26,175 nucleotides of DNA. It comes from a virus. The notes under the pieces are model-generated. The model worked only from the letters and a program-made list of their open reading frames with translations, was not told the DNA's origin and did no database searches. Both the position numbers and the translations under genes were made by a program. Every line of letters starts with the position of its first letter. The first letter of the stretch is position 1. Positions 280 through 24,888 of the stretch are shown here, in pieces. Location: positions 1 to 26,175 of IMG/VR virus record IMGVR_UViG_3300009091_000052. One strand, 5' to 3'.

Positions 280-1817
280 TATTTTATGAAATAATAAAAA
301 ATCCAGTACTCTGTACAGAGTTCATCTACAACATAGACCTGCTAGAAAGTGAAGAAAAATTTGAATATACCAGTTATCAAAGAGAGTTTATATGTGACTT
401 TAATAGTTATGTAAGTCTTTCGTGCGGGCGTAGTGTTGGTAAAACCGTTGCTTTAGTGGGGATTATTATCTGGATTTTAATAAGCAATGTGTACCCATTA
501 GAATATATAGTTTATGGTGTGCCGGGTAAAGTACATCTAGAGCCAGTATGGTCTAGTCTAGTAAGAAGGTTTAGGGGTAATTCATTCCTTAAATTCTTTT
601 TAGATAACAGAGCTGGCATAAATAATTCTGAGTACATACTCAAGTTACAGAATAACTCTCAACTAATGTGTAGACTTGCTGGACAAACTGGCACTGGTGT
701 AAACTTTATTGGTCTTCATACTCCAGTTGTAATTATAGATGAATCTGGGTATTTCCCATGGAGTGCATGGACAGAGCTACAACCTATTTTAAATACCTTT
801 GAACCAGGATTTAAAATGATAGCATCTGGTGTGCCTACTGGTTTACGTGAGAGAAATGTAAACTATCACTGCGATAGAGAAAATTCTAATTACACCAAGC
901 ATAAAATTTCTGCTTTACAAAATCCTAGATTTACAGATGATGATAGACTGAAGGCTTTAGAACTTTATGGTGATGAAGAGTCTGATGATTATATCCATTT
1001 AGTTCTAGGTTTGCATGGTAAGCCGGTATTCGCTTTGTTTGATAGAAATAACATGTCTATTTCTAATTATCCAGTTTACAAATTAGTTTTAGATGGTACA
1101 AAATATTTTGATAATATCACTGAGTATATTGGTAAGTTAGCAGTGTTACCGGGTTTACCGGATAAAGACTCTAAATGTTTAATTGGAGTTGACTTAGGCT
1201 ATACTGAACCTACGGCTATTGTAATCATGATTATGGAGAAGAACAATAATTTTAAATTCCATAGCAGGATTACACTTAACAAAGTAAATTACTTTATACA
1301 AGAGAAGATCATTGATTATTTAGATACCAAGTTTAGACCTTTTATTATAGGCATTGATGAAGGTTCCGCAGGTAAAGCAGTTATTCCTAGATTGCAAGAA
1401 CATGAAGAATTTTTACACAAAAATTTCAAAGATAGAGTTGTGCCAATTAATTTCTCATCACAGATAGTACTAGGTTCAGATAGCGAAGGTAATGAAATTA
1501 AAAGCAGAACTAAACCGTTCGCTGTAGGAGTACTCCAAGACTATAGTGATAGTCATAGAATTATATACTCATCTACAGATTTGGAAATGGTCTCTGAATT
1601 AGAGAGAATGACTTACAGTAAAACCCCGACTGGTGAAATCACCTATAAAACTATAACAGAGCGTGGAGGTAAAAAAGGTGAAGATCACTTTACATCCGCC
1701 ATGTTGTGTCTAGCTCTAGCATACTACATGTACAGCGATGTATTAAACTTTAGAGTACAGAAAAAGAAGCTAGCATCACCATTCTGGAATATTCCTGCGG
1801 ATACGTATGTCCTATAG
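243..1817 (+). CDS. terL: Terminase large subunit (ATPase/nuclease)
   Basis: This is the DNA-packaging motor protein, which cuts concatemeric phage DNA and pumps it through the portal. The 524-residue length is normal for the family. The N-terminal ATPase has a Walker A loop GRSVGKT at residues 62-68, a Walker B strand VVIIDES at 162-168 (acidic pair D166/E167) and a coupling-type SGVPTG at 195-200. The C-terminal RNase H-like nuclease shows the three expected acidic residues: D317 in GVDLGYTEPT, D372 in IGIDEGSAG, and D481 in GEDHFTSAM. The start is GTG at 243, chosen because a GGAGG lies at 228-232 with ten bases of spacing. The start sits inside the dehydratase gene. The TAG stop at 1815-1817 is part of the portal gene's ribosome binding site, so the two are translationally linked. 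No small terminase subunit is visible and it presumably lies upstream of the window. Confidence 0.95.
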   Translation: MPIIERVEQEDLIFYEIIKNPVLCTEFIYNIDLLESEEKFEYTSYQREFICDFNSYVSLSCGRSVGKTVALVGIIIWILISNVYPLEYIVYGVPGKVHLEPVWSSLVRRFRGNSFLKFFLDNRAGINNSEYILKLQNNSQLMCRLAGQTGTGVNFIGLHTPVVIIDESGYFPWSAWTELQPILNTFEPGFKMIASGVPTGLRERNVNYHCDRENSNYTKHKISALQNPRFTDDDRLKALELYGDEESDDYIHLVLGLHGKPVFALFDRNNMSISNYPVYKLVLDGTKYFDNITEYIGKLAVLPGLPDKDSKCLIGVDLGYTEPTAIVIMIMEKNNNFKFHSRITLNKVNYFIQEKIIDYLDTKFRPFIIGIDEGSAGKAVIPRLQEHEEFLHKNFKDRVVPINFSSQIVLGSDSEGNEIKSRTKPFAVGVLQDYSDSHRIIYSSTDLEMVSELERMTYSKTPTGEITYKTITERGGKKGEDHFTSAMLCLALAYYMYSDVLNFRVQKKKLASPFWNIPADTYVL

Positions 1818-1827
1818 GAGAGATATT

Positions 1828-3336
1828 ATGGAAGAAAAAGAAAGAAAATTAGCTAAAGCACAGTATACCATTTGGGATGTATATGGCTACAAAAGTAAAA
1901 CAACGGGGGTATGGTCTCCTAGTGATGTAGATAAGCTAGAGGTAGTAGACTTTAAAGAGTTTCATAAGCTTGTAGACCAGTGCAGATTTTATTACAGGAA
2001 AGACCCAATTGCAGGTACTGTTATTAACAAGTTGGTTGAGATTGGAATCCCAAGACTCAAGATAGAGAAGAAAGGCTTATCTCCAAATGAGGCTAGAATC
2101 TTTGAAGGTATTCTTGATGAAGTTCAAGAGTTTATAGAGAGTTGTGCCTTAGAATATTTAATCTCAGGTTTGGTAATTCCTGAGATTAAGTATGCTGCTG
2201 TTTCAAAAGATCAATTAGTCCAATTTGGAATTAAGAAGTATACTTCATTAGTTCTACCAGTTTCGATGTGGTTACGAGACCCTAAGACAATAAAGATAAA
2301 CTCTACCATGATAGGAGATGAACCATCCTATTATGTTATTCTACCAGAAGAGCTGATCTTTTTTATACAGAATAAGGGCATGTACCCTGATGGAACTAAA
2401 GATATAGCTTTATACCAGCAACTCCTAACTTACTATCCTGAGTTTGTTTATCAGGTTGAGCGGGGGGAGAAAGAAATCCTATTAGAGAATGATTTGATAG
2501 TACGTAGAAAACCTCTATCAGATTCTCCTTATCCTACTCAGTATTTACTTCCAGCAGTTGAAGCCCTTAAACATAAGAGAAACTTACGTAGAATGGATTA
2601 CTCTATCGCATCCAGGGTTATCAGTGCTATCATGCTGGTAAAACTAGGTAATGATGAGTTCCCTGTAACAGAGGATGATGAGAGTGCTTTTGAATCTATC
2701 CGAAGTCAAATGACATGGAGAAACTCTTATGGTAGAGATATAGAACGTATTTTCCAATTGTTTGGAAACCACACTCTAGAAATAGAGTGGGTATTCCCCC
2801 CAGTTGAAGCGTTGTTGAATGAAGCTAAATATCGTGAAGTAAACCAGGACATCTTCTTCGGTTTAGGATTTCCTAGAATCCTTACTACAGGTGAGACTGA
2901 AAGAACCCAGACATCCGACCCAGAATTTGCTACCATGTCTCCAGCTAAAACTATGGAGAACATGCAGAAAAAGTTACTACCTATAGCTCAAGCTATTATG
3001 GTAGAAACAGCTAACAGTAATAATCTTAGAGATTATCCAGTAATAAGTTTTGAACCAGTTAATCTACATGCCTTTGCTACATTTGTACAGGCTATGATTT
3101 CCTTGTACAATACTGGGAATATCTCTAGGACTACTCTGGATGAACTGTTTGGATTTAGATGGGAGGATGAAATGGAGTTAAAAGTGGACGAACAGAAAAT
3201 TATGGAAGAGTCTGATCTACCAGAGTTTTCACCACAACCTTTCTCACCTCAACCCGGAGCAGGAAATCAGCAAAAACCTAATAATACTCAACAAAAACCC
3301 CAACCAGCTAAGCCAAAACCATCTAAAACTGAATAA
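1828..3336 (+). CDS. Portal protein
   Basis: This is the probable dodecameric portal through which DNA enters and leaves the head. It follows the large terminase directly, the usual gene order. The ATG at 1828 is preferred over an in-frame ATG at 1807 because AGGAGA lies at 1816-1821 with six bases of spacing. This gives 502 residues, a usual portal length. The sequence has the portal style: an N-terminal region with FYYRKDPIAGTVINKLVE, a middle region where LKHKRNLRRMDYSIASRVI would fit the wing/stem helices, and a late VNQDIFFGLGFPRILTTGE followed by a helical crown-like part. The last 35 or so residues are rich in Pro, Gln and Lys and look disordered. Identification rests on position, length and general pattern, since portals share little sequence. 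Confidence 0.85.
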   Translation: MEEKERKLAKAQYTIWDVYGYKSKTTGVWSPSDVDKLEVVDFKEFHKLVDQCRFYYRKDPIAGTVINKLVEIGIPRLKIEKKGLSPNEARIFEGILDEVQEFIESCALEYLISGLVIPEIKYAAVSKDQLVQFGIKKYTSLVLPVSMWLRDPKTIKINSTMIGDEPSYYVILPEELIFFIQNKGMYPDGTKDIALYQQLLTYYPEFVYQVERGEKEILLENDLIVRRKPLSDSPYPTQYLLPAVEALKHKRNLRRMDYSIASRVISAIMLVKLGNDEFPVTEDDESAFESIRSQMTWRNSYGRDIERIFQLFGNHTLEIEWVFPPVEALLNEAKYREVNQDIFFGLGFPRILTTGETERTQTSDPEFATMSPAKTMENMQKKLLPIAQAIMVETANSNNLRDYPVISFEPVNLHAFATFVQAMISLYNTGNISRTTLDELFGFRWEDEMELKVDEQKIMEESDLPEFSPQPFSPQPGAGNQQKPNNTQQKPQPAKPKPSKTE

Positions 3337-3414: not shown

Positions 3415-3430
3415 TTAATTGAGGTTAATC

Positions 3431-4453
3431 ATGACTGATAATAAGTTTTATTTGGATACTAAATTTGAATTTTTGGAGGACGATTCCCCAGAACTTGGGG
3501 AGGCGTTTTCCGCTATCAGTTTAAATCCGTTTTTTCAGTGGGCTAAAATAGTAGTCACCGATGATTTACCCAATGCTAATAAGATGCGTATACCTCAAAG
3601 TGAATTTGATAATATGATTAAAACAGGGATAAACGCACCTATCAAGATGGCTCAGGCGGAGATTTCTCCAGGGCATAAAGAGGCGTTTGGTAATCCTATT
3701 GGTGTAATTGCTAATCTAACCAAGGAGTCCAACAGAATTATTGCCCTGGCTGCGCTATGGAAAAAAGAAAGACCAGAAGATATTGCTAAGTTGAAGGAAA
3801 TGTACACAAATGGAAATCCCCCCAATGTTTCTTGGGAAGTTTCCTATACAGAAGCTTCAGTAACTGAGGATGGTATCGAAGAATTATTGGGAACATCTTT
3901 AGACGGCTTGGCTATAGTAGGTCTTCCAGCCTACAGGGGTAGGACTCCTTTTGTTGCAATGTCCGCTGAAGATCAAAATAAATCTGATAAGGAGAGTGTA
4001 ACTTTGGAAGAAAATGAACTATTAAAACAAGAGATCGAGCAGTTGAAACAGGAAATTGCTGGACTCAAAGCAGATAAAGAAACTTTAGAAGAGACTTTGA
4101 AGACTGCTCAGGCAGAAGCTGAAGAGTTGAAAGCCTTTAAAGACGGGATTGATAAAGAGAAAGCAGATGCAGAAAAGCTTGCTGCAATCAAAACCCGTTT
4201 TGAAGAGGCTGGAATTTCTAAAGATGAAAATTATTTCGTTGAGAAGAAAGAAACCCTTTTGGGATTAGCTGATGAGGAATTAGATTTTATGATTCAGGAA
4301 ATTGCTGCGTTCAGTAAAACTGCCACATCGTCTGATAAGACTAAAGGGCCTAAAATTCCTGACGTAAAGAACACAGATAATGAAACTGAACTTGATTTAT
4401 CTGATCCTAAAGATTTAGCCAAAGCTTTGAAAGAGCTGCAAGCTAAAAAGTAA
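3431..4453 (+). CDS. Prohead protease / scaffold fusion (predicted)
   Basis: This predicted bifunctional head-assembly protein has 340 residues. The ATG at 3431 with GAGG at 3421-3424 is preferred over an in-frame TTG at 3419. Residues 1-178 look like a phage prohead serine protease: a candidate histidine H82 in SPGHKEAFGNPIGV, a candidate nucleophile at S134 or S138 in PNVSWEVSYTE, and the late strand TSLDGLAIVGLPAYRG that resembles the xxSLVxxPA end of these proteases. Residues 192-258 are a charged Glu/Lys/Leu heptad-like coiled coil, followed by a linker and a helical tail with LSDPKDLAKALKELQAKK, as in scaffolding domains that line the procapsid and bind the coat protein. It follows the portal and precedes the decoration and capsid genes, the expected place. 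The protease assignment is inferred from pattern and order. A pure scaffold is the main alternative. Confidence 0.68.
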   Translation: MTDNKFYLDTKFEFLEDDSPELGEAFSAISLNPFFQWAKIVVTDDLPNANKMRIPQSEFDNMIKTGINAPIKMAQAEISPGHKEAFGNPIGVIANLTKESNRIIALAALWKKERPEDIAKLKEMYTNGNPPNVSWEVSYTEASVTEDGIEELLGTSLDGLAIVGLPAYRGRTPFVAMSAEDQNKSDKESVTLEENELLKQEIEQLKQEIAGLKADKETLEETLKTAQAEAEELKAFKDGIDKEKADAEKLAAIKTRFEEAGISKDENYFVEKKETLLGLADEELDFMIQEIAAFSKTATSSDKTKGPKIPDVKNTDNETELDLSDPKDLAKALKELQAKK

Positions 4454-4473: not shown

Positions 4474-5040
4474 ATGGAACTCAATCATTATGGCGATTTT
4501 GTGATCGGCGCTGTGGCGATGGATGACATCGTTGAAGGTCGATTCGTGATTTTAGCCTCGCATTCATTGAGCAAAGATTATGGTAGCCAGTCTGACTTAC
4601 CCGGAGCACGCCTCCCTGTAAGTTCGACCGAAGCTGCCAGAGCTAGATATATCACTAAGTTTGAGCAAGACAACCGTAGTTTACCGATCTACCAACCCCA
4701 TCCGGCATTTTCTTATGCCCTGCGTTACGGCTTTGACCAAGGCGAAAACGCACCCTTCGCGGCTACTGTGTACATCACCCACCCAGGTGTTCAGAGTGAA
4801 AGAACCATCCCGTCCGGCTCTAATTTAGTGCTGTACGGTGAGGGTATCTACACTATCCCCTCTGGTAGTTGGATTCATAGTGCGAATCTGCACGTTCCTG
4901 GTGCTACGTTCACTATTGGTGATCGTGCTACGGATACTACAGATGCTGGTAAAGTTAAGTCTAGCGCATCCAATGTTATTGGTGAAGTTGTGCGCTACAA
5001 CTCCAGCAACGATGAACTGACTATCAGGATTCTGACGTAA
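4474..5040 (+). CDS. Probable head decoration / capsid stabilisation protein
   Basis: This 188-residue protein is encoded between the scaffold-type gene and the major capsid gene, the usual place for a capsid decoration protein that binds the outside of the mature shell. It is rich in small and beta-forming residues and has no membrane segment. A Gly/Ser/Thr-rich second half (IPSGSNLVLYGEGIYTIPSG, then a short repeat-like IPSGSWIHSANLHVPGATF) suggests a beta-sandwich or beta-tulip-like fold. The stretch IGAVAMDDIVEGRFVIL resembles the start of DUF2190-like decoration proteins, in which a strand is followed by an E-G turn. A strong GGAGG at 4457-4461 precedes the ATG. The gene has clearly higher GC and different codon choice from the rest of the window, shared with the capsid gene, which fits heavy expression. 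The decoration role is inferred from context. Confidence 0.6.
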   Translation: MELNHYGDFVIGAVAMDDIVEGRFVILASHSLSKDYGSQSDLPGARLPVSSTEAARARYITKFEQDNRSLPIYQPHPAFSYALRYGFDQGENAPFAATVYITHPGVQSERTIPSGSNLVLYGEGIYTIPSGSWIHSANLHVPGATFTIGDRATDTTDAGKVKSSASNVIGEVVRYNSSNDELTIRILT

Positions 5041-5055
5041 GTGGAGGATTATACA

Positions 5056-5970
5056 ATGGCTGATGAATTGAAAGTTAAAGAAGCAATCGCATCGTTGATG
5101 TCCGATAAGAACAGACGCGATGAGCTTGCTGAGATGATTACCGAGTACGTGCAGCCCAACCATATCACTACAGATTTTGTTGGGATGTTGCTGAATACTC
5201 GTTCGCTAAAGCCTGGGGATTCTCTGGTCAAGAAACTCCGCAAGGGTTTGCAAGTACACACATTAGTTCCTGGTTCTATCCATTTGGCACACGAAGTTAC
5301 CGTGACAGATCGTGTTAACTATCTGCTCGATGGTGCTGATGTGAAGGTCACTTGGAATGAATGGGAAATGGATGCTGGTGAGATTGGTACGGTTAGTGAA
5401 ATTCGTAGTGAGATGCTAGCCAAACTGAGAGACTACTACTACAATAAAGTTTTTACCGCCTTGACTACAGTCTGGACTGCCGGTAATACTCCTAATAACT
5501 TCACCTCTGTTGGTGGAACTATTACTGCTGCGGCATTGGAGAATGCTATTGACAGGATTAATCAGACTACTCCTGGTGTAAAAGCTGTTGTAGGTACTAG
5601 AGCTGCTATGACTCCGATCACCAAATTTGGTGCATTCTGGAATGATGGTGGTACTCAGTGGGAAGGTGTTGATTCTCAGTTGGAGGAAATTGTTCAAAGA
5701 GGTATGTTGGGACGCTATTATGGTGCACCTCTGATCGTCCTAGATCAGGTGTATGATAATTTAGAATCGTGGTCTCCGATGCTGCCCACTGACAAGATTC
5801 TTGTCTTGGGTGAAAATGTTGGTGAGTTCATCACTTACGGTGATGTGAAGACCAAGCAGTATGACGATCCTCGCCCGACCCCGCCTCAATGGTTCCTCGA
5901 ACTGTATCAACAGTTTGCTTTGTTAATTTGGAACGCACAAGGCTTGTATGTAATTGGCGGGCTGTCGTAA
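5056..5970 (+). CDS. Major capsid protein (HK97-like fold predicted)
   Basis: This is the likely main shell protein, 304 residues, a typical size for a coat without a long delta domain, consistent with a separate scaffold domain upstream. The ATG at 5056 is chosen over an in-frame GTG at 5041 because the GTG lies inside the ribosome binding site GTGGAGG. Features in order are a charged N-terminal helix, a region around residues 75-115 with VTDRVNYLLDGADVKVTWNE and EWEMDAGEIGTVSEI that fits the E-loop/spine helix area, a domain with ALENAIDRINQ and VKAVVGTRAAMTPITKF, and a C-terminal part with LGRYYGAPLIVLDQVYD and KILVLGENVGEFITYGD, the pattern seen in HK97-fold A domains. It is followed at once by a hairpin. 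Raised GC and codon bias fit very high expression. The fold is inferred rather than proven. Confidence 0.85.
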   Translation: MADELKVKEAIASLMSDKNRRDELAEMITEYVQPNHITTDFVGMLLNTRSLKPGDSLVKKLRKGLQVHTLVPGSIHLAHEVTVTDRVNYLLDGADVKVTWNEWEMDAGEIGTVSEIRSEMLAKLRDYYYNKVFTALTTVWTAGNTPNNFTSVGGTITAAALENAIDRINQTTPGVKAVVGTRAAMTPITKFGAFWNDGGTQWEGVDSQLEEIVQRGMLGRYYGAPLIVLDQVYDNLESWSPMLPTDKILVLGENVGEFITYGDVKTKQYDDPRPTPPQWFLELYQQFALLIWNAQGLYVIGGLS

Positions 5971-6052: not shown

Positions 6053-6550
6053 ATGACAGAAGGAATGAGTGTATATTCTTTAATGCAGACAGGAAAACCA
6101 TACAAATCATATATTAAAACTGTTTTGGGTAAGGTATATGTTAATGTTTGGGACTCTTTTGAAAATAAAAAAGTCGGATTAATTATTGAAGGGAATCCCA
6201 ATTCCCAACCAGAAGAATGTATTATTGATGTATGGAATGAGCAAGAGGATGTTTACTTTAAGAGAGCTAATAAACGGCACTTTGAAACTGGTTTTATAAT
6301 TGCTCATAATAGGACAGATGCACCCGTAGAGAGGTCTCCTAATGATCTTACTGATGATGAACTTAATAACCTGCTGAACAGTAAGTTCTTATCATTACAG
6401 AGTGGAGTTAATAAGATGACCTCGGTAGCCCCTGTTTTTCGTATGATTGAAATGGCTAAGAAACAAGAGAAATCTGAAAAGATTATCAAGTTCTTGGAAG
6501 GTAAATTATCTGAATTACAGTTACGTGAGTATAATATAGAAGAGGCTTAA
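6053..6550 (+). CDS. Unknown protein in connector position
   Basis: This 165-residue protein is not recognised by sequence. It is the first gene after the capsid hairpin and has an AGAAAGGA ribosome binding site at 6036-6043, nine bases before the ATG. The N-terminal half looks beta-rich (SYIKTVLGKVYVNVWDSF, VGLIIEGN, CIIDVWNEQEDVYFKRANK). The second half is helical and charged, with PNDLTDDELNNLLNSKFLS followed by a Lys/Glu helix ending EKIIKFLEGKLSEL. No membrane segment or signal peptide is visible. Its stop codon directly abuts the ATG of the head-tail adaptor gene, so it is co-translated with head-completion functions and is likely a minor virion or assembly protein. That role is a guess from position only. 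Confidence 0.75.
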   Translation: MTEGMSVYSLMQTGKPYKSYIKTVLGKVYVNVWDSFENKKVGLIIEGNPNSQPEECIIDVWNEQEDVYFKRANKRHFETGFIIAHNRTDAPVERSPNDLTDDELNNLLNSKFLSLQSGVNKMTSVAPVFRMIEMAKKQEKSEKIIKFLEGKLSELQLREYNIEEA

Positions 6551-7066
6551 ATGTCTTATGATCTAACTAACCTTATTCCAGAATTACGCATCAGAATTGG
6601 TGATACTAACCCAGCATTATACCGCTATACGGATGTCTGGTTACTAGTTAGCCTTAAGTCCAGTGTAAAATTATTATCTAAATGGTGGAACTTTAAATAC
6701 CTATTAGATTCTAATGGGGATGTTATGAGAAACCCTGATGGATATTTTGTATTTGAAGAGACATCCGATGGTGTTATAGGTGGGGTTTTTGAACCTGGAG
6801 ATGATCAAGTTGTAATTATTTATGCGGCTATTGTAATTCTGGAAGGTAGTCTAGAAAATTCTGCCTGGGATTTTGGTAGCTGGAAGGATGCAGAGATCAG
6901 CTATTCTAATATAGAAAGTTCTAGATCAAGAGGAGATACCCTTAAAAGATTATGGACTGAACTTACATCTATCTTGAAAGTACCACAGAAGAGACTGGCA
7001 CAAGCATTAAAAGGTTCTTTACCAGGGTATTTAGCTAACTCATTTGAGAGGGAAGATAAGTATTAG
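6551..7066 (+). CDS. Head-tail connector (adaptor) protein, predicted
   Basis: This predicted ring-forming adaptor binds under the portal and starts the neck. It has 171 residues. The opening, LTNLIPELRIRIGDTNPALYRYTDVWLLVSLKSSV, is the classic start of phage adaptor proteins (the HK97 gp6 / SPP1 gp15 type): a helix, a GD turn, then a helix with a YTD or FSD motif. The C-terminal part is helical with a basic end (LKRLWTELTSILKVPQKRLAQAL). An inserted beta-hairpin-like segment with DSNGDVMRNPDGYFVFEETSDG lies at about residues 56-78. The ATG at 6551 follows the previous stop without a gap, with a GAGG about ten bases upstream in the preceding gene. The assignment is fairly firm because both pattern and gene order agree. 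Confidence 0.72.
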   Translation: MSYDLTNLIPELRIRIGDTNPALYRYTDVWLLVSLKSSVKLLSKWWNFKYLLDSNGDVMRNPDGYFVFEETSDGVIGGVFEPGDDQVVIIYAAIVILEGSLENSAWDFGSWKDAEISYSNIESSRSRGDTLKRLWTELTSILKVPQKRLAQALKGSLPGYLANSFEREDKY

Positions 7067-7077
7067 AAAGGATTATA

Positions 7078-8271
7078 ATGGCTAAGGTAAAAAAGAAAAA
7101 GGTTTTGTTTATTGGGGATGGTATAGTCCCAACAGGTTTTAGTACAGTCATCCATAACATAATTTCAAAACTTCCTAAGAGTGAATTTGAAGTTCACCAT
7201 CTGGCAGTAAACTATTATGGAGACCCACATGATAAAGCCTGGAGGGTATACCCGGCAGTAACTGGAGGAGATATCTGGGGTTTTAATAGGATAAAGATGT
7301 TTGCAGATCAGAATTTTGATCTGATATTTATCCTCAATGATCCTTGGGTAATAGATACATATCTAAAAGTTATTCAAGAGCAGTTTAAAAAAATCCCCCC
7401 TATTGTAGTTTATTTTCCAGTAGATGCTGCTCTTTTAGATAAAGATTGGTTTATAAGATATGATATAGTAACAAAGGTTTGTGTTTATACTCAGTTTGGT
7501 TTTATAGAAGTACAAAAGATCAGACCAGATTTAGAACCAGTTGTAATTCAACACGGTCTGGATAGGAACACTTTCTATAAAATTGATGAAGATAAAAGAA
7601 CTTTAAAAGCTAAAGTATATCCCAATAAAGAAGATTTTCTAGATTCTTTTATAGTTTTAAATGCTAATAGGAACCAGCCTAGAAAAAGAATAGACCTATC
7701 TATGCTAGCGTTTACTATTTTTGCAGAAGACAAACCTGAGAATGTAAAGTTGTACCTTCATATGGGTACTAGAGATATGGGTTGGGATATCCTGAAGATG
7801 GCTTTCAGGTATAATATTGAGAGCAGACTGATAGTAACTAACACCCTCCCTGGAGTACAGACTGTAACTTTAGACAAATTAAATCTAATTTACAATGCTA
7901 CAGATGTTGGATTAAATACAGCAGTAGGAGAGGGTTGGTCACTTACAAACATGGAACATGCTGTTACTGGAGCACCTCAAATTATTCCAGATCACAGCGC
8001 ACTACATGAATTATATTCAGATTGTGGTCTGCTAGTCCAAGTTGATACCTGGGCGGTTAACCCAGAAACCCTGACAGTATCCGGTATAGTAAGGGCAGAA
8101 GATGTTGCCAAAGGTTTACAACTTTTATATGATAATAAAACAATGTACAATCTTTTATCAGAAAAATGTTCACAGAAGTTTACATCCCAGGAATATGACT
8201 GGAATACTATTGTAAAAGAGAAGTGGATACCTGTATTTAGAGAAGCTTATGAGCATAACTTGGCCCAATAA
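7078..8271 (+). CDS. Glycosyltransferase, GT-B fold, GT4-like
   Basis: This retaining-type sugar transferase has 397 residues, the normal GT4 length. The N-terminal Rossmann half begins with basic residues, then VLFIGDGIVPTGFSTVIHNI, a beta strand followed by a glycine loop for the acceptor. An HG pair at 159-160 (VVIQHGLDR) marks the inter-domain hinge. The C-terminal donor-binding half contains LNANRNQPRKRIDL at 194-207 (the usual N/G-R-xxxKxxD segment), then NATDVGLNTAVGEGWSLTN. It has a perfect E-X7-E motif at E285 and E293 that contacts the nucleotide sugar, followed by GAPQIIPDHSALHEL. No membrane anchor is seen, so it should act in the cytoplasm. It sits between two head-tail connector genes with a good ribosome binding site (AGAAAGGA) and overlaps the next gene by 23 bases. 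It is therefore expressed late with virion genes. Donor and acceptor are unknown. Confidence 0.88.
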   Translation: MAKVKKKKVLFIGDGIVPTGFSTVIHNIISKLPKSEFEVHHLAVNYYGDPHDKAWRVYPAVTGGDIWGFNRIKMFADQNFDLIFILNDPWVIDTYLKVIQEQFKKIPPIVVYFPVDAALLDKDWFIRYDIVTKVCVYTQFGFIEVQKIRPDLEPVVIQHGLDRNTFYKIDEDKRTLKAKVYPNKEDFLDSFIVLNANRNQPRKRIDLSMLAFTIFAEDKPENVKLYLHMGTRDMGWDILKMAFRYNIESRLIVTNTLPGVQTVTLDKLNLIYNATDVGLNTAVGEGWSLTNMEHAVTGAPQIIPDHSALHELYSDCGLLVQVDTWAVNPETLTVSGIVRAEDVAKGLQLLYDNKTMYNLLSEKCSQKFTSQEYDWNTIVKEKWIPVFREAYEHNLAQ

Positions 8272-8695
8272 CACAGTAACAGTCATAGATGCTATTAGAG
8301 GTGCAATTGGTAGGGATGTATATTTTTATACCATCGTTACTACCACCCCATGCCCTCTATGTAACTTAGACCCTATAACTAATACATCTACAGATTCTTT
8401 CTGTCCTACTTGTTCAGGAGCTTTCTGGTTGTATACTTATAGTGGTACAAGTGTCTCCGGGCATGTAACCTGGGGATATGCAGATCAGATGGACTGGGCT
8501 ACTGGTGGGCAAATTTATGAGGGGGATTGTAGGGCACAAATCAAATACACTGTAGCTAATTTAAGTTTAGTAGAAGATGCTAAATGGTTAGTTATAGATG
8601 GTAAGAAGATGAGCATTATAAAGGTTATCTATCGTGGAGTTCCACAAGTAAATAGAATTCTCTTAGACTTAAGAGAGGAAGGAAAAGAAGGTTGA
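8249..8695 (+). CDS. Putative head-closure / connector protein with a zinc-ribbon insert
   Basis: This 148-residue protein starts with ATG at 8249, inside the end of the glycosyltransferase gene. The most notable feature is C35-x-x-C38 and C52-x-x-C55, two CPxC knuckles 13 residues apart that would bind one zinc. Around this insert the protein looks like a small beta barrel, with a final segment DAKWLVIDGKKMSIIKVIYRG and RILLDLREE. That ending is like the 'position required, relation to other strand' end of SPP1 gp16/HK97 gp7-type stopper proteins, where a DxV/IxxxxxxY pattern is common. Gene order (after the adaptor, before a tail-completion-type protein) supports a neck role. The zinc-binding insert is unusual. 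The connector call is an inference and the cysteines are seen directly. Confidence 0.6.
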   Translation: MSITWPNNTVTVIDAIRGAIGRDVYFYTIVTTTPCPLCNLDPITNTSTDSFCPTCSGAFWLYTYSGTSVSGHVTWGYADQMDWATGGQIYEGDCRAQIKYTVANLSLVEDAKWLVIDGKKMSIIKVIYRGVPQVNRILLDLREEGKEG

Positions 8696-10479: not shown

Positions 10480-11670
10480 ATGGCAAAAAGATTAGCCATT
10501 CCTTCAGAGGATGTAAAACTTAGGATAGTTGGCCCCTATGATAGCTTTTTCACTCACAGAACTCAGAGAGTGGATATCAATGAAGATGTCCCTACTACAG
10601 ATGTGTATGAAATTGGTAATAATACCTTAGCTGGTACTGTACAAGATACCCCAAATGTTACGCTGACATTCAGTGCTTTTGATGTTGGGATTAAAATCTT
10701 TTCGGTATTGACTGGTACTAACCCGATTGCGTACCCTGCGGCTGGTGTTGATATCTCGGAGTTGGGAGAAGCTGACGCTATTATTTACATCCGTGATGCA
10801 AGCTTGGTGGATTATGTAAAATCTGCACATGCTAAAAGATTACAAGTACGAGACTTTACCTTCACATATAGTGTGGATGGTGAATCTACAGAAGATTATA
10901 CATTGGTTGGTTCTCAGAAAAGGTGGTTTAAGAATGATGTTGTCGTAGACAGGATTACTACGGGAACTACATCCTTCACTCTTACCCAGACACCAATTCA
11001 ATTAAAGAATGGAGATTATCTACTCTCCGTTATTCTAGATGGTGAATACCTTACAGAGGTTGCTGCGGCACCCGCTACTGGTGAGTATAGTATTGCAGGT
11101 ACTACTGTAACTACTGCTGATACCAGGACTGCCCAGTTTATCGCTGTTTACCATGCTAACCCTGCTGGTACTAACTGGAGTTATATTTCTGATTCTCTGG
11201 TTCCGGCAGCTACCAGAGGTAGAGATGTTGATATCGTTATCTTAGCTAACAACATTCCTAGGGTTCAATCGGTTACTATCAATGGTAACTTAAACGTACA
11301 GAGTGTACGTGAAATGGGTTCTAGAGACATTGTTGGTTATCAGAGACAGGTTCCTACTGTTGAAGGTACAATCGCTGTTTTGGATACTGATACGGAGTTG
11401 ATTGATCTGTTATTGACAGGTTCTATCAGTTCTGGTGATACAGAGTTCAAATTGGCTGAGGGTTGTGTGGCATCCGGTGTTGCACTGGATATTCAGATTA
11501 CAGACCCGTGCGATACAACTGTACCTTACACAGTTTTGAAGACTGTTTATGTGCCTAACATTACAGTTGTTGGTGATGCGTGGTCTGCTGTTGTAAACCA
11601 GAATAGCACATGGAATATCAATTTCCGCTCTAATACAGCAGAGTGTGTTGTGTACTCTGGTTCTAGATAA
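10480..11670 (+). CDS. Major tail (tube) protein, predicted
   Basis: This predicted tube subunit forms the hexameric rings of the tail. It has 396 residues, with AGGAGG at 10463-10468 and ATG at 10480. It is almost entirely beta-rich: an N-terminal segment with LAGTVQDTPNVTLTFSAFDV (the typical tube-strand region), then LQVRDFTFTYSVDGESTEDY, then a segment at about residues 157-230 with FTLTQTPIQLKNGDYLLSV that looks like an inserted or surface beta domain, then VQSVTINGNLNVQSVREMG and QVPTVEGTIAVLDTDTELID, a second tube-like motif. A strong terminator follows, as is usual for a very abundant protein, and GC content is raised relative to its neighbours. It lies before the frameshifted chaperone and tape measure, which fixes its role well. 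Confidence 0.8.
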   Translation: MAKRLAIPSEDVKLRIVGPYDSFFTHRTQRVDINEDVPTTDVYEIGNNTLAGTVQDTPNVTLTFSAFDVGIKIFSVLTGTNPIAYPAAGVDISELGEADAIIYIRDASLVDYVKSAHAKRLQVRDFTFTYSVDGESTEDYTLVGSQKRWFKNDVVVDRITTGTTSFTLTQTPIQLKNGDYLLSVILDGEYLTEVAAAPATGEYSIAGTTVTTADTRTAQFIAVYHANPAGTNWSYISDSLVPAATRGRDVDIVILANNIPRVQSVTINGNLNVQSVREMGSRDIVGYQRQVPTVEGTIAVLDTDTELIDLLLTGSISSGDTEFKLAEGCVASGVALDIQITDPCDTTVPYTVLKTVYVPNITVVGDAWSAVVNQNSTWNINFRSNTAECVVYSGSR

Positions 11671-17434: not shown

Positions 17435-17800
17435 ATGTCTAATTGGGAACTAGGCGGAAGAAGAATTTTTGTCACTGATATTGGTAGTGACTTCAAACAG
17501 ATCATAGCTAGATTGCATCCTTTAGGAGGTGGTACAGTCCACCATACTTTTGGTTATGAGGATGCAGTTAGAAAGCTTAAATGCTATGTAGTAGGTAGTA
17601 CTGATATGGGGCAGATAGAGAGTTTCACTGCTAGTGGGACTACCTTTGTATTAGGAAGTCCTTACGGAGCATTGGGAAATTATTTTGTAAGCAATGTAAA
17701 TCACAATATGTTGAATACTGTTTGTCAAACTCTAAGACCGGATTTACCGGATAACTCCCCTGTTTACGTAGTAGATATAGAACTGTATCAGGAAATATAA
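17435..17800 (+). CDS. Small tail-tip protein (gpU-like, tentative)
   Basis: This 121-residue protein is encoded directly after the tape measure. The stop TAG of the tape measure lies in its ribosome binding site AGGAGA (17425-17430). The pattern HPLGGGTVHHTFGYEDAVRK followed by LKCYVVGSTDMGQIESF, then TFVLGSPYGALGNYFVSNV and a final strand YVVDIELYQEI, is similar in style to the small P2 gpU family of tail proteins (a 'G-G-x-V-x-H-x-F-G' segment, a strand, a helix-like middle, then 'G-x-Y-x-V' and a final strand). It may also be a minor hub-adjacent protein unrelated to gpU. It ends one base inside the first hub gene. The tail-tip location is solid and the family link is tentative. Confidence 0.6.
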   Translation: MSNWELGGRRIFVTDIGSDFKQIIARLHPLGGGTVHHTFGYEDAVRKLKCYVVGSTDMGQIESFTASGTTFVLGSPYGALGNYFVSNVNHNMLNTVCQTLRPDLPDNSPVYVVDIELYQEI

Positions 17801-18789
17801 TGGCAGAACTTTACGCCGATATTACAGGTCTAAGTAATATTCTAAATGTTAGTGTCTCTATGAGCCATTCAGCCGCTACTTCTGTTGCTATTGTAGATGC
17901 TTTAAGTTCTTCTTTGGATATCGGGGATGATATAGATATTGATATTGGGTATACAGGTAATCATTCAAGAATTTTTAGAGGTTATGTAAAACAAATTGAT
18001 AGAAAAGTACCAGAAAATCTCTATACTATTACAGCCCATGATGTAATGACCAGAGCTGTAGATTTTTTTGTAGCATCCACTAACCCAGAAGAGCCTTTTA
18101 CCAGGACTAATATTTCTGCTGAAGATTTAGTAGAGGATGTATTAGCTTTAGCAGGTCTAACTAATTTTGATCCTGATCCTACAAATTTTGTTTTTGCTAC
18201 CAATTCAGAAGCTGAGGTTAATTTAGTATCAGCATTTGATTTTTGTAGATATATAGCTGATACTTTAACTTGGCATCTTTATGCAGATGAGGATGGAGTT
18301 GTACATTTTATAAACAGAAAACCTTATGTTATGAAAGCTGGTAGTGTAGAATCTAACCAACCTGGATTTCAAGCTGATACATCTTTAGGTACTATTGATG
18401 ATACTATGATCCTGGATTTTACATACAGAAGATCAGAAAAAGATTTAAGGAATAGAATAGTTGTTTATGGCAGTACTGGAGTTTACGCTGAGGCTAAAGC
18501 ATCCAGCCCTTATTTGCCTGCTGGATTTTACAAGACTGTAGCATTTGGTACTAACCTTATTGATCATCAGGGTTATGCACAAAAAGCTGCGGATTATAAT
18601 CTTATTATTTTAAATAGATTAACTGAACAACTATCTATGTCAGTATTAGGTGATCCAGCTTATATGGCTAGGTCTGTATTTACAATTAATGAGAGTATTC
18701 TAAGTATTAATGAGGATTATTATATTGTTCAGTCAGAACATAACTGGTCTAAAAATGGGTATATTGTTACTATGGAGTTGCGTAAATAA
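17800..18789 (+). CDS. Tail hub protein 1 (late control gpD-like)
   Basis: This 329-residue protein has the layout of phage hub proteins (P2 gpD, T4 gp27, Mu gp44). The N-terminal beta domain with SLDIGDDIDIDIGYTGNHSR, IFRGYVKQIDRKVPENLYTI and TAHDVMTRAVDFFVAS is the common 'GDxVxxxxG - RIFxGxV - YxxTAxD' start. A helix-rich middle follows (SAEDLVEDVLALAGLTNF), then a domain with WHLYADEDGVVHFINRK and RNRIVVYG. Hubs connect the tape measure and tube to the tail tip and open during infection. No lysozyme or peptidase domain is attached. It overlaps by one base with genes on both sides (TAATG at each end). It is paralogous to the first 315 residues of the next gene (see findings). Confidence 0.75.
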   Translation: MAELYADITGLSNILNVSVSMSHSAATSVAIVDALSSSLDIGDDIDIDIGYTGNHSRIFRGYVKQIDRKVPENLYTITAHDVMTRAVDFFVASTNPEEPFTRTNISAEDLVEDVLALAGLTNFDPDPTNFVFATNSEAEVNLVSAFDFCRYIADTLTWHLYADEDGVVHFINRKPYVMKAGSVESNQPGFQADTSLGTIDDTMILDFTYRRSEKDLRNRIVVYGSTGVYAEAKASSPYLPAGFYKTVAFGTNLIDHQGYAQKAADYNLIILNRLTEQLSMSVLGDPAYMARSVFTINESILSINEDYYIVQSEHNWSKNGYIVTMELRK

Positions 18790-21700
18790 TGGATGTTCAG
18801 ATAAAACATAATGGTACGGACATTACCGATTATGTTTTAGAGTATAACCGGACTAAAGAGTTATGCTCTGGTATAGGTTTATTAGACATTAGTATTACTA
18901 AGAATGTATCAAGGACTTTTGATCCCTGGGATACCATTACTATTTATGAAGAGGGCAGTAAAAGGGGTGAGTATAATATCTCTACCATTGCTAGGGATTC
19001 AAAAAGTGGAAATTACCAATTAGAATGTCAGGATGATTCTAAAAGGTTAGTAGATTATTTTGTAGCAGATTCTTATACAATAACTACATATAGCCTAACT
19101 AAATATTGGATAGAACTTATCCTAAATATGGCAGGTGTAAATTACACTTTTGATACTGCTGAATTAGGTACACCATTGAATGAGAATTCAGTAGTTGGGG
19201 TTGGAAGTGCATATGATGTAATCACCCCTCTATTACAGCAGAGTGGTTGGTATATATATTTTGATGAAGATAATTTAGCTCACATAGGTAAAATAGATAA
19301 AACTACCAGCCATGATGATAGTTTTAATGATAGTGATATTTTAAGTATTAACACTATGAAAAACGACGCTATGCTCAGGAATAGAGCAGTAGTTTGGGGT
19401 GCTGGGGATGCTTATAGTGGTACTTGGATATTTGCGGATGTTAGCAGACAAACTTCGTGGAATTATGATTCTAATGATGTTAGAACTGTAGTTCTAGCTA
19501 ATAGTAGTATTAGAAATACTGCTACAGCTAACCAACTAGCTATACAAATATTAGATGAATTTACTAAAAAGAATTATGTAAAAACTATTGAGATTATAGG
19601 AAGTCCTGATATTGAGATTGCGGATACAGTTTATATAAATTCAAATTATTTCTCAGGTCTTTGTTTAGTAACTACTATGGCTGTAAGTGTTAACAGTAAT
19701 GGTATGATTACTACATTAGTATTAGATCAACGTTGCCCAAGATTATTTGGTGTGTGGGATATTTCTAATAATTATGTTTATATTGGTACTCAAGGTTCTG
19801 GAGTAAAAAGAAAACTACTAAATGGATCAACTTGGGAAGATTATAGTACTGGATTAACTAATTTAAATATTACAGATTTAGATGTAAATAATGGTAAATT
19901 TGTATGTACAACATCTGGCGGGTCTTTGTTTCTTAGAGATGTTACAAGTAGTGGTTGGAGTGTGTTTACACCGAGCGGTTTTTATAATAGATTAAATATT
20001 CCTTCATATATGATATCAGCAAATGATGGTAACTATGTAGCATGTGCTATAAATAAAACTAATAATGAAATTTATGGTTTATTTACTAATAATGTATCTA
20101 GTTGGGTAACTACAATTACATCATCAGGTAATTATATAAATAGTTTAATAGTAACATTAAGTGGTTTGTCAACATATGATTATAACCATATAGGGTATGA
20201 TTTAGAGGATATTGGAAATTCTATACTAGTATCTACGTATACAGGTATAACTGCTGCAAGTGGTTTATTTTCAGAGGGTACTGGAATACAGAGAAATAAA
20301 AGTTCTTATATTAGTAACGCTACTAGTACATATAATACTGCTATGAATATGTCATATGGTAGTTTAGATGCGGTAACACTTGCAAGATGTTGGTACGAAA
20401 ATTATTATTTCAGACATGATACGAATAAGGCATGGAGAGTAGATGCATCTACAGGAGAAACTATAAATATAAATAATCCTGGAGGATATTCATTCTATGC
20501 ATCTTTTGGTGTAGGCGTAGTATTAGATGAAAATAATTACATAGTCTTTAAAACACATGCTACTGATGAAAAAATAAACTATATAGTTAGATTTAATTTT
20601 GAAGATGAAACCAGCAGTGTGATACACACTGAAAGCGATGCCACCCAATATGTAGGTGTATGGGATGCATCTGCTGTAAAAACAGATACTGATGTACGCT
20701 GTATTTTTATAGCCAGTAAAATGAATCCTGGTGCAGCGTATCAAAATTATTATTATTACAAATATTTTGATTTATCTAATTTTACAGTATCTTCTGAAAC
20801 AACTATAGCTACTTGGGAAGAATTATATGCTACTTCAAAAGACGAGTGGGGTCTTGATTTCGCCGGCAGTAAATTTGATGATTGTTACGGTAGATTTTTC
20901 TTGACTTATAAAGAACAACAAACTAACGCTGCTGGTGGTGGTGCTAAAGTAAAGCTTATAGTTATAAATGCATTAGAGGGTACTTTTGAATCTACTGTAA
21001 AAACTATGGATAAAGAAGGTTCTATATCAGTGGATTTTACACCTTTTGATAGTATATCAAGTTATGCCAATCAAAAATTTTATTTGATGTACAGGTTAAT
21101 TCGCATAACCCCAACTTCTACTGAATACGTGATAGATGAAATAGATTTTAGTGGTAATGATACTAATATAAAAACCAGTGCAACAACTTGGAATAAATTT
21201 TCATCATCTAAATACACAACATACTTAATATATAATGACGGAACTGTAGAAACATTAGCAGGTACAGGTGGGGTTACTTCTATACCAGTACCATCTAATA
21301 TTTCTAGAACAGCCGATGATAATGATAACTCTCTTATCATATACAGAAACTTTTATCCCGGACGGGTATATAAAGTTAGCCCAGGTAATACATTAACAAT
21401 ACTAATAGATGATTGGATTTATGGAGATGCTACACCTACACTATTTCTAGAAAAAATATTATTAGGTTCTGTTCTATTTTCTAATGGTGCTTGGCAAACT
21501 ACTATATATCCTAGTGTTTCTAGCGTATTGAAAAAACAAGCTGATAGTTTAATATTTGAGGATGTTTTTACAAAAGTTTTTGATTCTCAAGTACCTTTGA
21601 AATTAGATGCATCATTAGAATCTCCAATAGTACTTTTTAGCCCCGGGCAGGTACTTTTATATACTACACTAGCAGGAGATTTAGGTACTTTTTCTCTATT

Positions 21701-22016
21701 AGATAATATTAACAGCATATATGATGTAAGAGAATTCTACTCATCTAGTGGTATATATACTTTATTAGCTACATCATCTGGTGTATTTAAATTTCCATAT
21801 ACAGGCGGTAGTGGGCTTTCTTTAGTTCCTGTATATTCTGGTTTTTATAGAAAAGTTGAGACAAATAATCATGGATATTATTCTACACCCTATATATTTG
21901 TAGGTACATCTGGATTATTCTTTCAAAAGAACCCAGATATAGATACTTTTACAGATTATTCTTATAGTTTACCGATGAGCAATATTACAGTTATCAGAAT
22001 GGATGATTCCCTATGA
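18789..22016 (+). CDS. Tail hub protein 2 with a large beta-propeller-like extension
   Basis: This 1,075-residue tail-tip protein has two parts. Residues 1-315 repeat the hub layout of the previous gene: YQLECQDDSKRLVDYFVAD, WIELILNMAGVNYTF, WYIYFDEDNLAHIGKID, MLRNRAVVWGAGD. Residues about 316-1075 are beta-rich with Ser/Thr/Tyr/Asn bias and recurring strands such as YVYIGTQGSGVKR, GKFVCTTSGGSLFLRDV, IYTLLATSSGVFKFPYTG and YIFVGTSGLFF. These are in the style of propeller blades (strand, GT(S)SG turn, strand). No catalytic motif was recognised. It could be a receptor-binding or carbohydrate-contacting tip. GC falls to very low values here (11 of 60 bases at 20041-20100). The TGA stop overlaps the fibre start (ATGA). 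The hub half is firm and the propeller description is an inference. Confidence 0.7.
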   Translation: MDVQIKHNGTDITDYVLEYNRTKELCSGIGLLDISITKNVSRTFDPWDTITIYEEGSKRGEYNISTIARDSKSGNYQLECQDDSKRLVDYFVADSYTITTYSLTKYWIELILNMAGVNYTFDTAELGTPLNENSVVGVGSAYDVITPLLQQSGWYIYFDEDNLAHIGKIDKTTSHDDSFNDSDILSINTMKNDAMLRNRAVVWGAGDAYSGTWIFADVSRQTSWNYDSNDVRTVVLANSSIRNTATANQLAIQILDEFTKKNYVKTIEIIGSPDIEIADTVYINSNYFSGLCLVTTMAVSVNSNGMITTLVLDQRCPRLFGVWDISNNYVYIGTQGSGVKRKLLNGSTWEDYSTGLTNLNITDLDVNNGKFVCTTSGGSLFLRDVTSSGWSVFTPSGFYNRLNIPSYMISANDGNYVACAINKTNNEIYGLFTNNVSSWVTTITSSGNYINSLIVTLSGLSTYDYNHIGYDLEDIGNSILVSTYTGITAASGLFSEGTGIQRNKSSYISNATSTYNTAMNMSYGSLDAVTLARCWYENYYFRHDTNKAWRVDASTGETININNPGGYSFYASFGVGVVLDENNYIVFKTHATDEKINYIVRFNFEDETSSVIHTESDATQYVGVWDASAVKTDTDVRCIFIASKMNPGAAYQNYYYYKYFDLSNFTVSSETTIATWEELYATSKDEWGLDFAGSKFDDCYGRFFLTYKEQQTNAAGGGAKVKLIVINALEGTFESTVKTMDKEGSISVDFTPFDSISSYANQKFYLMYRLIRITPTSTEYVIDEIDFSGNDTNIKTSATTWNKFSSSKYTTYLIYNDGTVETLAGTGGVTSIPVPSNISRTADDNDNSLIIYRNFYPGRVYKVSPGNTLTILIDDWIYGDATPTLFLEKILLGSVLFSNGAWQTTIYPSVSSVLKKQADSLIFEDVFTKVFDSQVPLKLDASLESPIVLFSPGQVLLYTTLAGDLGTFSLLDNINSIYDVREFYSSSGIYTLLATSSGVFKFPYTGGSGLSLVPVYSGFYRKVETNNHGYYSTPYIFVGTSGLFFQKNPDIDTFTDYSYSLPMSNITVIRMDDSL

Positions 22017-24432: not shown

Positions 24433-24888
24433 ATGCCGAAGGCAGTGGGTGAATTAAAGATATGCCCAAAATGTGAAAAAACAAAAAACATATCTGAATT
24501 TCACAAAGATACTAGGACTGTAGATGGATTAAAGATTTGGTGCAAAACTTGTAGATACGAAAAATTAAATAAACCAACTAAATATGGATTGCCCAGAACT
24601 CATAAAGATTATGATAAAGCTGCTTATTTAGATAGGTTTTATGGAATATCTCTAGATATTTGGGATAAATTATTCCATGACCAGGAGGGTACGTGTGCTA
24701 TCTGCAATGAAGAATTTAAAGATAAAATTAATGTAGATCATGACCATATAACAGGAAAGGTTAGAGGTCTATTATGTGATAAATGTAATCGAGCATTGGG
24801 TCAGTTTAATGATGATATCAATAAACTTAAAAATGCTATAAAATATTTGGAAAATAGTAAGGAGGTATGTGATGCCCCAGGTGGTTGA
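24433..24888 (+). CDS. HNH nuclease, recombination endonuclease VII-like
   Basis: This 151-residue protein has two zinc-type cysteine pairs and a nuclease core. The N-terminal C11-x-x-C14 with C37-x-x-C40 forms one zinc knuckle with FHKD between. The second half has C88-x-x-C91, then the catalytic segment NVDHDHITGKVRGLLCDKCN (residues 100-119; D102, H103, D104, H105; C115-x-x-C118). The tail has ALGQFNDDINKLKNAIKYLE. This is the hallmark of endonuclease VII-like (T4 gp49) proteins, which cut branched DNA, and of related homing HNH enzymes. A GGAGG at 24421-24425 precedes the ATG. It ends inside the following gene (17-base overlap). Phage copies can resolve DNA branches before packaging, or be selfish homing genes, and its solitary place among lysis genes fits either. 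Confidence 0.88.
   Translation: MPKAVGELKICPKCEKTKNISEFHKDTRTVDGLKIWCKTCRYEKLNKPTKYGLPRTHKDYDKAAYLDRFYGISLDIWDKLFHDQEGTCAICNEEFKDKINVDHDHITGKVRGLLCDKCNRALGQFNDDINKLKNAIKYLENSKEVCDAPGG

Follow-up and report, generated by a model that had tools for sequence, protein, structure and literature searches.

A GT4-type glycosyltransferase gene holds a fixed place in the head-tail connector region of a lineage of uncultured phages

The window analyzed here is the whole of a 26,175-base virus record, in which open reading frames (ORFs) were called mechanically; the genes given with coordinates from Gmd to the probable tail tube lie on the plus strand. It opens with the 3' end of a gene for GDP-mannose 4,6-dehydratase (Gmd, 1-279), cut by the contig edge. 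The large terminase subunit gene follows (terL, 243-1817; PHROG_2, E = 1e-18) and forms the 3' border of a variable glycan cassette. Downstream are the genes for the portal protein (1807-3336; PHROG_2739, E = 7e-13), a probable prohead protease/scaffold (3419-4453), assigned from its position and a coiled coil with weak profile matches, and a probable capsid decoration protein (4474-5040). The latter gave no match in a profile search of its product and was assigned from its place between the protease and the major capsid protein (MCP), where it is kept in the relatives read. The MCP (5041-5970) is of the HK97-fold type (NF042927, E = 2e-26, above the cut-off), and its matches among cultured phages are distant only, at about 21-24% identity to Bacillus Slash-type phages and Microcystis phage MaeS. 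Then come a conserved gene, syntenic in relatives (6053-6550), a putative head-tail adaptor (6551-7066), the glycosyltransferase gene under study (7078-8271, hereafter GT4) and a predicted neck protein, the stopper (8249-8695). Genes 8692, 8909 and 10006 separate the stopper from a probable tail tube (10480-11670; PHROG_985, E = 3e-5, and position), which is followed by genes 11774 and 12559 and by a probable tape measure. Further downstream, the window carries an Endonuclease VII/HNH-type gene (24433-24888; PF02945, E = 5e-23); in relatives, genes of this type turn up at differing sites among the virion genes, in contig L004 between portal and protease. Homologs of two adjacent tail genes, 17800-18789 and 18789-22016, cross-match at about 24% identity (E of about 1e-9 to 1e-10), which suggests a duplicated tail domain.

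The two genes flanking GT4 were examined by structure prediction. The product of 8249-8695, which has a conserved Cys-rich loop with Cys invariant in the alignment, models as a neck stopper: an AlphaFold2 model (pLDDT 74.5) found phage neck/stopper proteins as its best Foldseek matches, including the phage NF5 neck (E = 3.4e-4), the SPP1 connector 7z4w and the lambda neck. The product of 6551-7066 is a putative adaptor, judged from where its gene lies and from a model that is mainly helical and returned no significant match in a fold search; the protein found no match in cultured phages. An earlier note on this DNA had set GT4 between the adaptor and a likely stopper, and its stopper is borne out by these neck matches while its adaptor stays at the level of position and helical content.

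The ORF at 7078-8271 is uninterrupted and encodes 397 amino acids from an ATG start preceded by a purine-rich, ribosome-binding-like stretch (gaaaggatt). Its 3' end overlaps ORF 8249-8695 by 23 bases, as the earlier note had reported. The product is matched by PHROG_2170 "glycosyltransferase" (E = 5e-40, residues 8-389), and a profile search of the PDB placed chlorovirus B736L, a solved GT-B enzyme of family GT4, at the top (E = 6.5e-42, profile positions 9-391). This match covers almost the full length, so that the GT-B homology is far above chance; the second-best entry (E = 1.6e-6) lies about 35 orders of magnitude behind in E-value. The Pfam model Glyco_trans_1_4 (PF13692) scored below its curated cut-off (E = 0.012, 16.3 bits against 27). 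The phage/chlorovirus branch is divergent, and the GT4 assignment is therefore based on PHROG_2170 and B736L. The E-X7-E motif at E285/E293 and the GT-B layout described in the earlier note were recovered with the same residue numbers, together with the basic phosphate-binding residues R202/K203, and with H159 and T19-G20. No membrane-like segment was detected in a sequence scan of GT4, and its codon usage resembles that of the neighbouring genes. Taken together, 7078-8271 most likely encodes a soluble, retaining-type GT-B glycosyltransferase.

When viral contigs were searched with the GT4 alignment, hundreds of relatives were recovered, all uncultured and mostly fragments. Among the best 80, which were read, GT4 occupies the same place in about 53 loci. 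A search of this kind is biased towards contigs that carry GT4, and relatives were therefore also collected independently, with the MCP as anchor; MCP identity to the window falls to 53% within this set. GT4 was present in all 46 MCP-anchored loci that contain the adaptor and at least 600 bases past it; some of these contigs are near-duplicates, so that the independent lineages cannot be equated with this number. The earlier note's placement of GT4 inside the connector cluster, directly before the stopper, was confirmed in the window and in 27/27 MCP-anchored loci having both adaptor and stopper. The spacing between adaptor and GT4 is mostly 2-27 nt and the overlap with the stopper recurs in 38 of 46 cases; no loss or relocation of GT4 was seen in the lineage. 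In some relatives, inserted fibre-like genes flank GT4 on either side and GT4 stays. The placement of GT4 is a trait of this lineage. In some distant homologs (S-EIV1, L079) the gene was not seen adjoining virion genes. Genes inserted beside GT4, the adaptor or gene 6053 in L035, L036, L041, L047, L050 and L057 encode large proteins of fibre or decoration type, with up to 950 amino acids, and small companions, and L066 has two GT4-family genes, plus others, between adaptor and stopper.

Residues T19, G20, H159, R202, K203, E285 and E293 are invariant in 54/54 distinct GT4 copies. Over these copies, the median pairwise identity is 0.44 for GT4 and for the stopper, and 0.42 for the portal. Between the window and its 81%-identical relative, dN/dS is 0.080 for GT4, 0.073 for the MCP and 0.074 for the portal. 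GT4 is under purifying selection as strong as that on the capsid gene. Its divergence also keeps pace with that of the virion genes: its pairwise distances correlate with theirs at 0.34-0.64, inside the range found among the virion genes themselves. The highest value is that with the tail tube (Spearman 0.64), which is too weak to name the tail tube as acceptor. Several individual contigs deserve mention. In L095 (3004-5178), the GT4 ORF reaches 724 amino acids owing to an intein inserted between the two catalytic glutamates (Intein_splicing, E = 3e-17, with N- and C-terminal splicing regions), and joining the extein flanks restores the canonical motif (GEGWGL-CNVEH). Inteins are selfish elements that prefer conserved sites of important proteins, so this insertion fits a core role for GT4. 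The same contig encodes, two genes before the adaptor and near GT4, a Ser/Pro-repeat protein (1-1143, SVSPSASPS repeats) that is a candidate O-glycosylation substrate. In L007, many frame breaks affect the capsid, tube and tape-measure genes and GT4 is intact; stop-codon recoding was considered and rejected, all three stops being about equally frequent in the broken frames, which are probably assembly errors.

The earlier note had also placed Gmd at the left edge of the window, and this gene is whole in L003, a contig of the window's species with a 100% identical GT4. The L003 gene (742-1731) encodes a full Gmd of 329 amino acids (PF16363, E = 6e-123; TIGR01472 gmd, E = 1.2e-120, where its 402.8 bits fall short of the cut-off, 415) and has a GT2-like gene ahead of it. 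Among the long relatives, Gmd was found in 3/14, always upstream of terL, at about 4, 6 and 17 kb; G003, a relative of 62 kb whose GT4 is 81% identical, has no Gmd. An epimerase of L171 was not retained as Gmd, a general epimerase model fitting it better. The earlier note had treated Gmd and GT4 as a pair, to be looked for around terL and the connectors of related phages. They do not form a fixed unit: Gmd occurs in L003 and 3/14 long relatives as against GT4 in 46/46 loci, and the check for the pair in relatives found one of the two genes commonly missing, the outcome that the note itself had named as refuting.

What recurs instead of the pair is a broader cassette. In the longer regions it sits between a small-terminase-like gene (so named by position) and terL. 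Its order in long relatives is Gmd, a C-methyltransferase, further methyltransferases with FkbM among them, in some cases an NKWYS-type protein, a GT9-like and a GT2 gene, ending at terL; a DegT aminotransferase and a cytidylyltransferase are also found. A glycosyltransferase-like ORF lies at most three genes from terL in 32 of 42 non-redundant contigs. This tally combines profile hits with sequence clusters read by eye; the GT9-like and some GT2-like genes were assigned from the clusters, as several of them get no Pfam score. Four contigs (L030, L032, L115, L149) have no glycan gene at this place, yet GT4 is present in them and its catalytic residues are kept, which indicates that GT4 is independent of a cassette there. 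GT4 is constant and its presumed partner cassette variable, the cassette being common and more general than the Gmd-GT4 pair. The wider idea of the earlier note, that sugar-making and sugar-transferring steps are combined within the virion block, survives in this form, and its specific pairing of Gmd with GT4 does not.

RecA, DnaB and PolA encoded by G003 and a GH25-type lysozyme encoded in the window point to a bacterial host. Assignment of the host from genome bins was abandoned, as the lineage's only two GTDB contigs, L170 in a Brevinema bin and L171 in a Bathyarchaeota bin, name unrelated hosts and at least one of them is probably misbinned.

We consider it probable that GT4 adds a GDP-linked sugar to a virion protein and that the cassette elaborates the resulting glycan. 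According to this reading, GT4 would be made together with the neck proteins and would attach a sugar to a phage structural protein in the host cytoplasm, using a donor linked to GDP (GDP-mannose or a 6-deoxy sugar made through Gmd). The cassette enzymes (GT2, GT9-like, methyltransferases, aminotransferase and sometimes Gmd) would then extend and decorate this first sugar, to give a virion with a lineage-specific glycan. The operon position of GT4 speaks of timing and not of target; candidate acceptors include the MCP, the probable decoration protein and, by analogy with mycobacteriophages, the tail tube. We infer the protein acceptor, the joint action with the cassette and an effect on the particle, which might be shielding or changed adsorption. 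The choice of donor follows by analogy from B736L of chlorovirus NY-2A, which bound GDP-mannose best among the nucleotides tested (PMC9614988). Chloroviruses with B736L-type genes carry GMD too, and a B736L-type enzyme has been proposed to transfer D-rhamnose (PMC4691112). What B736L does in nature is uncertain as well, since NY-2A capsid glycans are without mannose (PMC9614988). The earlier note's tie between glycan function and the virion genes remains the best reading, through the fixed place, the constraint and the cassette, once the Gmd-GT4 pairing is set aside. A bolder version would make GT4 a core enzyme, perhaps an essential one, that is linked to morphogenesis in a lineage of tailed phages not yet described. 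It would set the first sugar on a protein of the neck, tail or capsid, and a swappable cassette between the small-terminase-like gene and terL would diversify this glycan like a serotype locus. As a whole, this version appears unlikely.

Other roles for GT4 were weighed against this reading. GT4 and the cassette could act late in infection on capsule, LPS or wall glycan at the surface of the host, blocking superinfection or helping progeny to escape from debris. The cassette does resemble a small polysaccharide locus, with its GT2, GT9-like, Gmd, DegT aminotransferase, cytidylyltransferase and methyltransferase genes, and PF10364 "putative capsular polysaccharide synthesis" matches in two members. 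However, the cassette regions of four relatives, which were read and partly scanned, the window's own cassette being cut off, revealed neither a flippase or polymerase nor a membrane protein of GtrA/GtrC type, and GT4 itself is without a membrane-like segment. Expression with a late virion operon, after entry, would be an odd timing for exclusion, and a surface role does not account well for a gene that tracks the virion genes and keeps its place in 46/46 loci. We regard it as a minority possibility. The chances are lower again that GT4 acts on some unrelated soluble acceptor and is carried by the lineage as cargo, riding in a stable, highly expressed operon. Distant homologs at other genomic places (S-EIV1, L079) and the four relatives without a cassette before terL would fit such a cargo, but no loss or move of GT4 was seen in the lineage, even though insertions to either side of it appear and disappear, and selection on it matches that on the capsid gene in strength.

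Least probable of all is glycosylation of modified phage DNA bases, as by the T4-type glucosyltransferases. DNA-acting phage GT-B enzymes exist, B736L is a remote profile match of the T4 and RB69 DNA glycosyltransferases (PMC6024577), and a single cassette protein, from one of the relatives, resembles a TET-associated glycosyltransferase in a profile match. DNA glycosyltransferase genes, however, normally adjoin nucleotide metabolism genes and not the neck, and no thymidylate-synthase/hydroxymethylase (PF00303) was found in 13 long relatives, possibly fragments, in a search whose controls matched. A Tet/JBP search gave no match, but neither did its positive controls, so that it carries no weight.

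Phage glycosyltransferases are usually treated as cargo, whereas this GT4, throughout a diverse uncultured lineage, equals the capsid and neck genes in constraint and in fixity of place, and it is the presumed partners that differ. Should the virions prove to be glycosylated, the lineage would have a constant-plus-variable surface-sugar system comparable to bacterial serotype loci and chlorovirus capsid glycans, and roles of virion sugars in shielding, adsorption and escape from surface decoys would become testable.

Comparable arrangements occur in several known viruses. The closest solved homolog, NY-2A B736L (PDB 3OY2/3OY7), shares with GT4 the GT-B layout, the NRNxxRKR stretch and E-X7-E, and belongs to viruses that also encode GMD, but it comes from a giant algal virus and has no known neck-operon location. 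Tetrasphaera phage TJE1 has a GT4 homolog (gp06) upstream of its terminase genes, with genes for a nucleotide-sugar epimerase, a nucleotidyltransferase and a methyltransferase, but outside the connector cluster. S-CBS4-type cyanophages have a gene of this GT4 family after the portal gene and one for 220 amino acids; next to come are a GT2 of PHROG_29879 and a methyltransferase. In Synechococcus phage S-CBS4 itself (gp014-gp016; 38.7% identity for GT4), these genes likewise lie in the head gene block, but the second glycosyltransferase is adjacent to GT4 and not before terL; no match to the MCP of the present lineage was found in S-CBS4. The GT2 ahead of Gmd in L003 matches PHROG_29879 (E = 6e-12) and, in a direct comparison that aligned the C-terminal part only, S-CBS4 gp015 (E = 2e-10), so that two enzyme families are shared by the virion blocks of both phage groups. 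The earlier note knew of no described system with this exact placement, which holds for the site and not for the general arrangement: mycobacteriophage Corndog (cluster O), absent from the phage records matched by GT4 at E ≤ 1e-5, carries an O-methyltransferase and three glycosyltransferase genes (gp35-gp38) in its structural operon, between portal and protease and not between adaptor and stopper. These four proteins are produced in infected cells and not packaged in virions (PMC4351075). Virion proteins of Che8, Corndog and Myrna are described as glycosylated in PMC12363180, which cites Freeman 2023. Corndog is the nearest described case for the GT4 arrangement, the glycan in the present lineage being a prediction from its genes.
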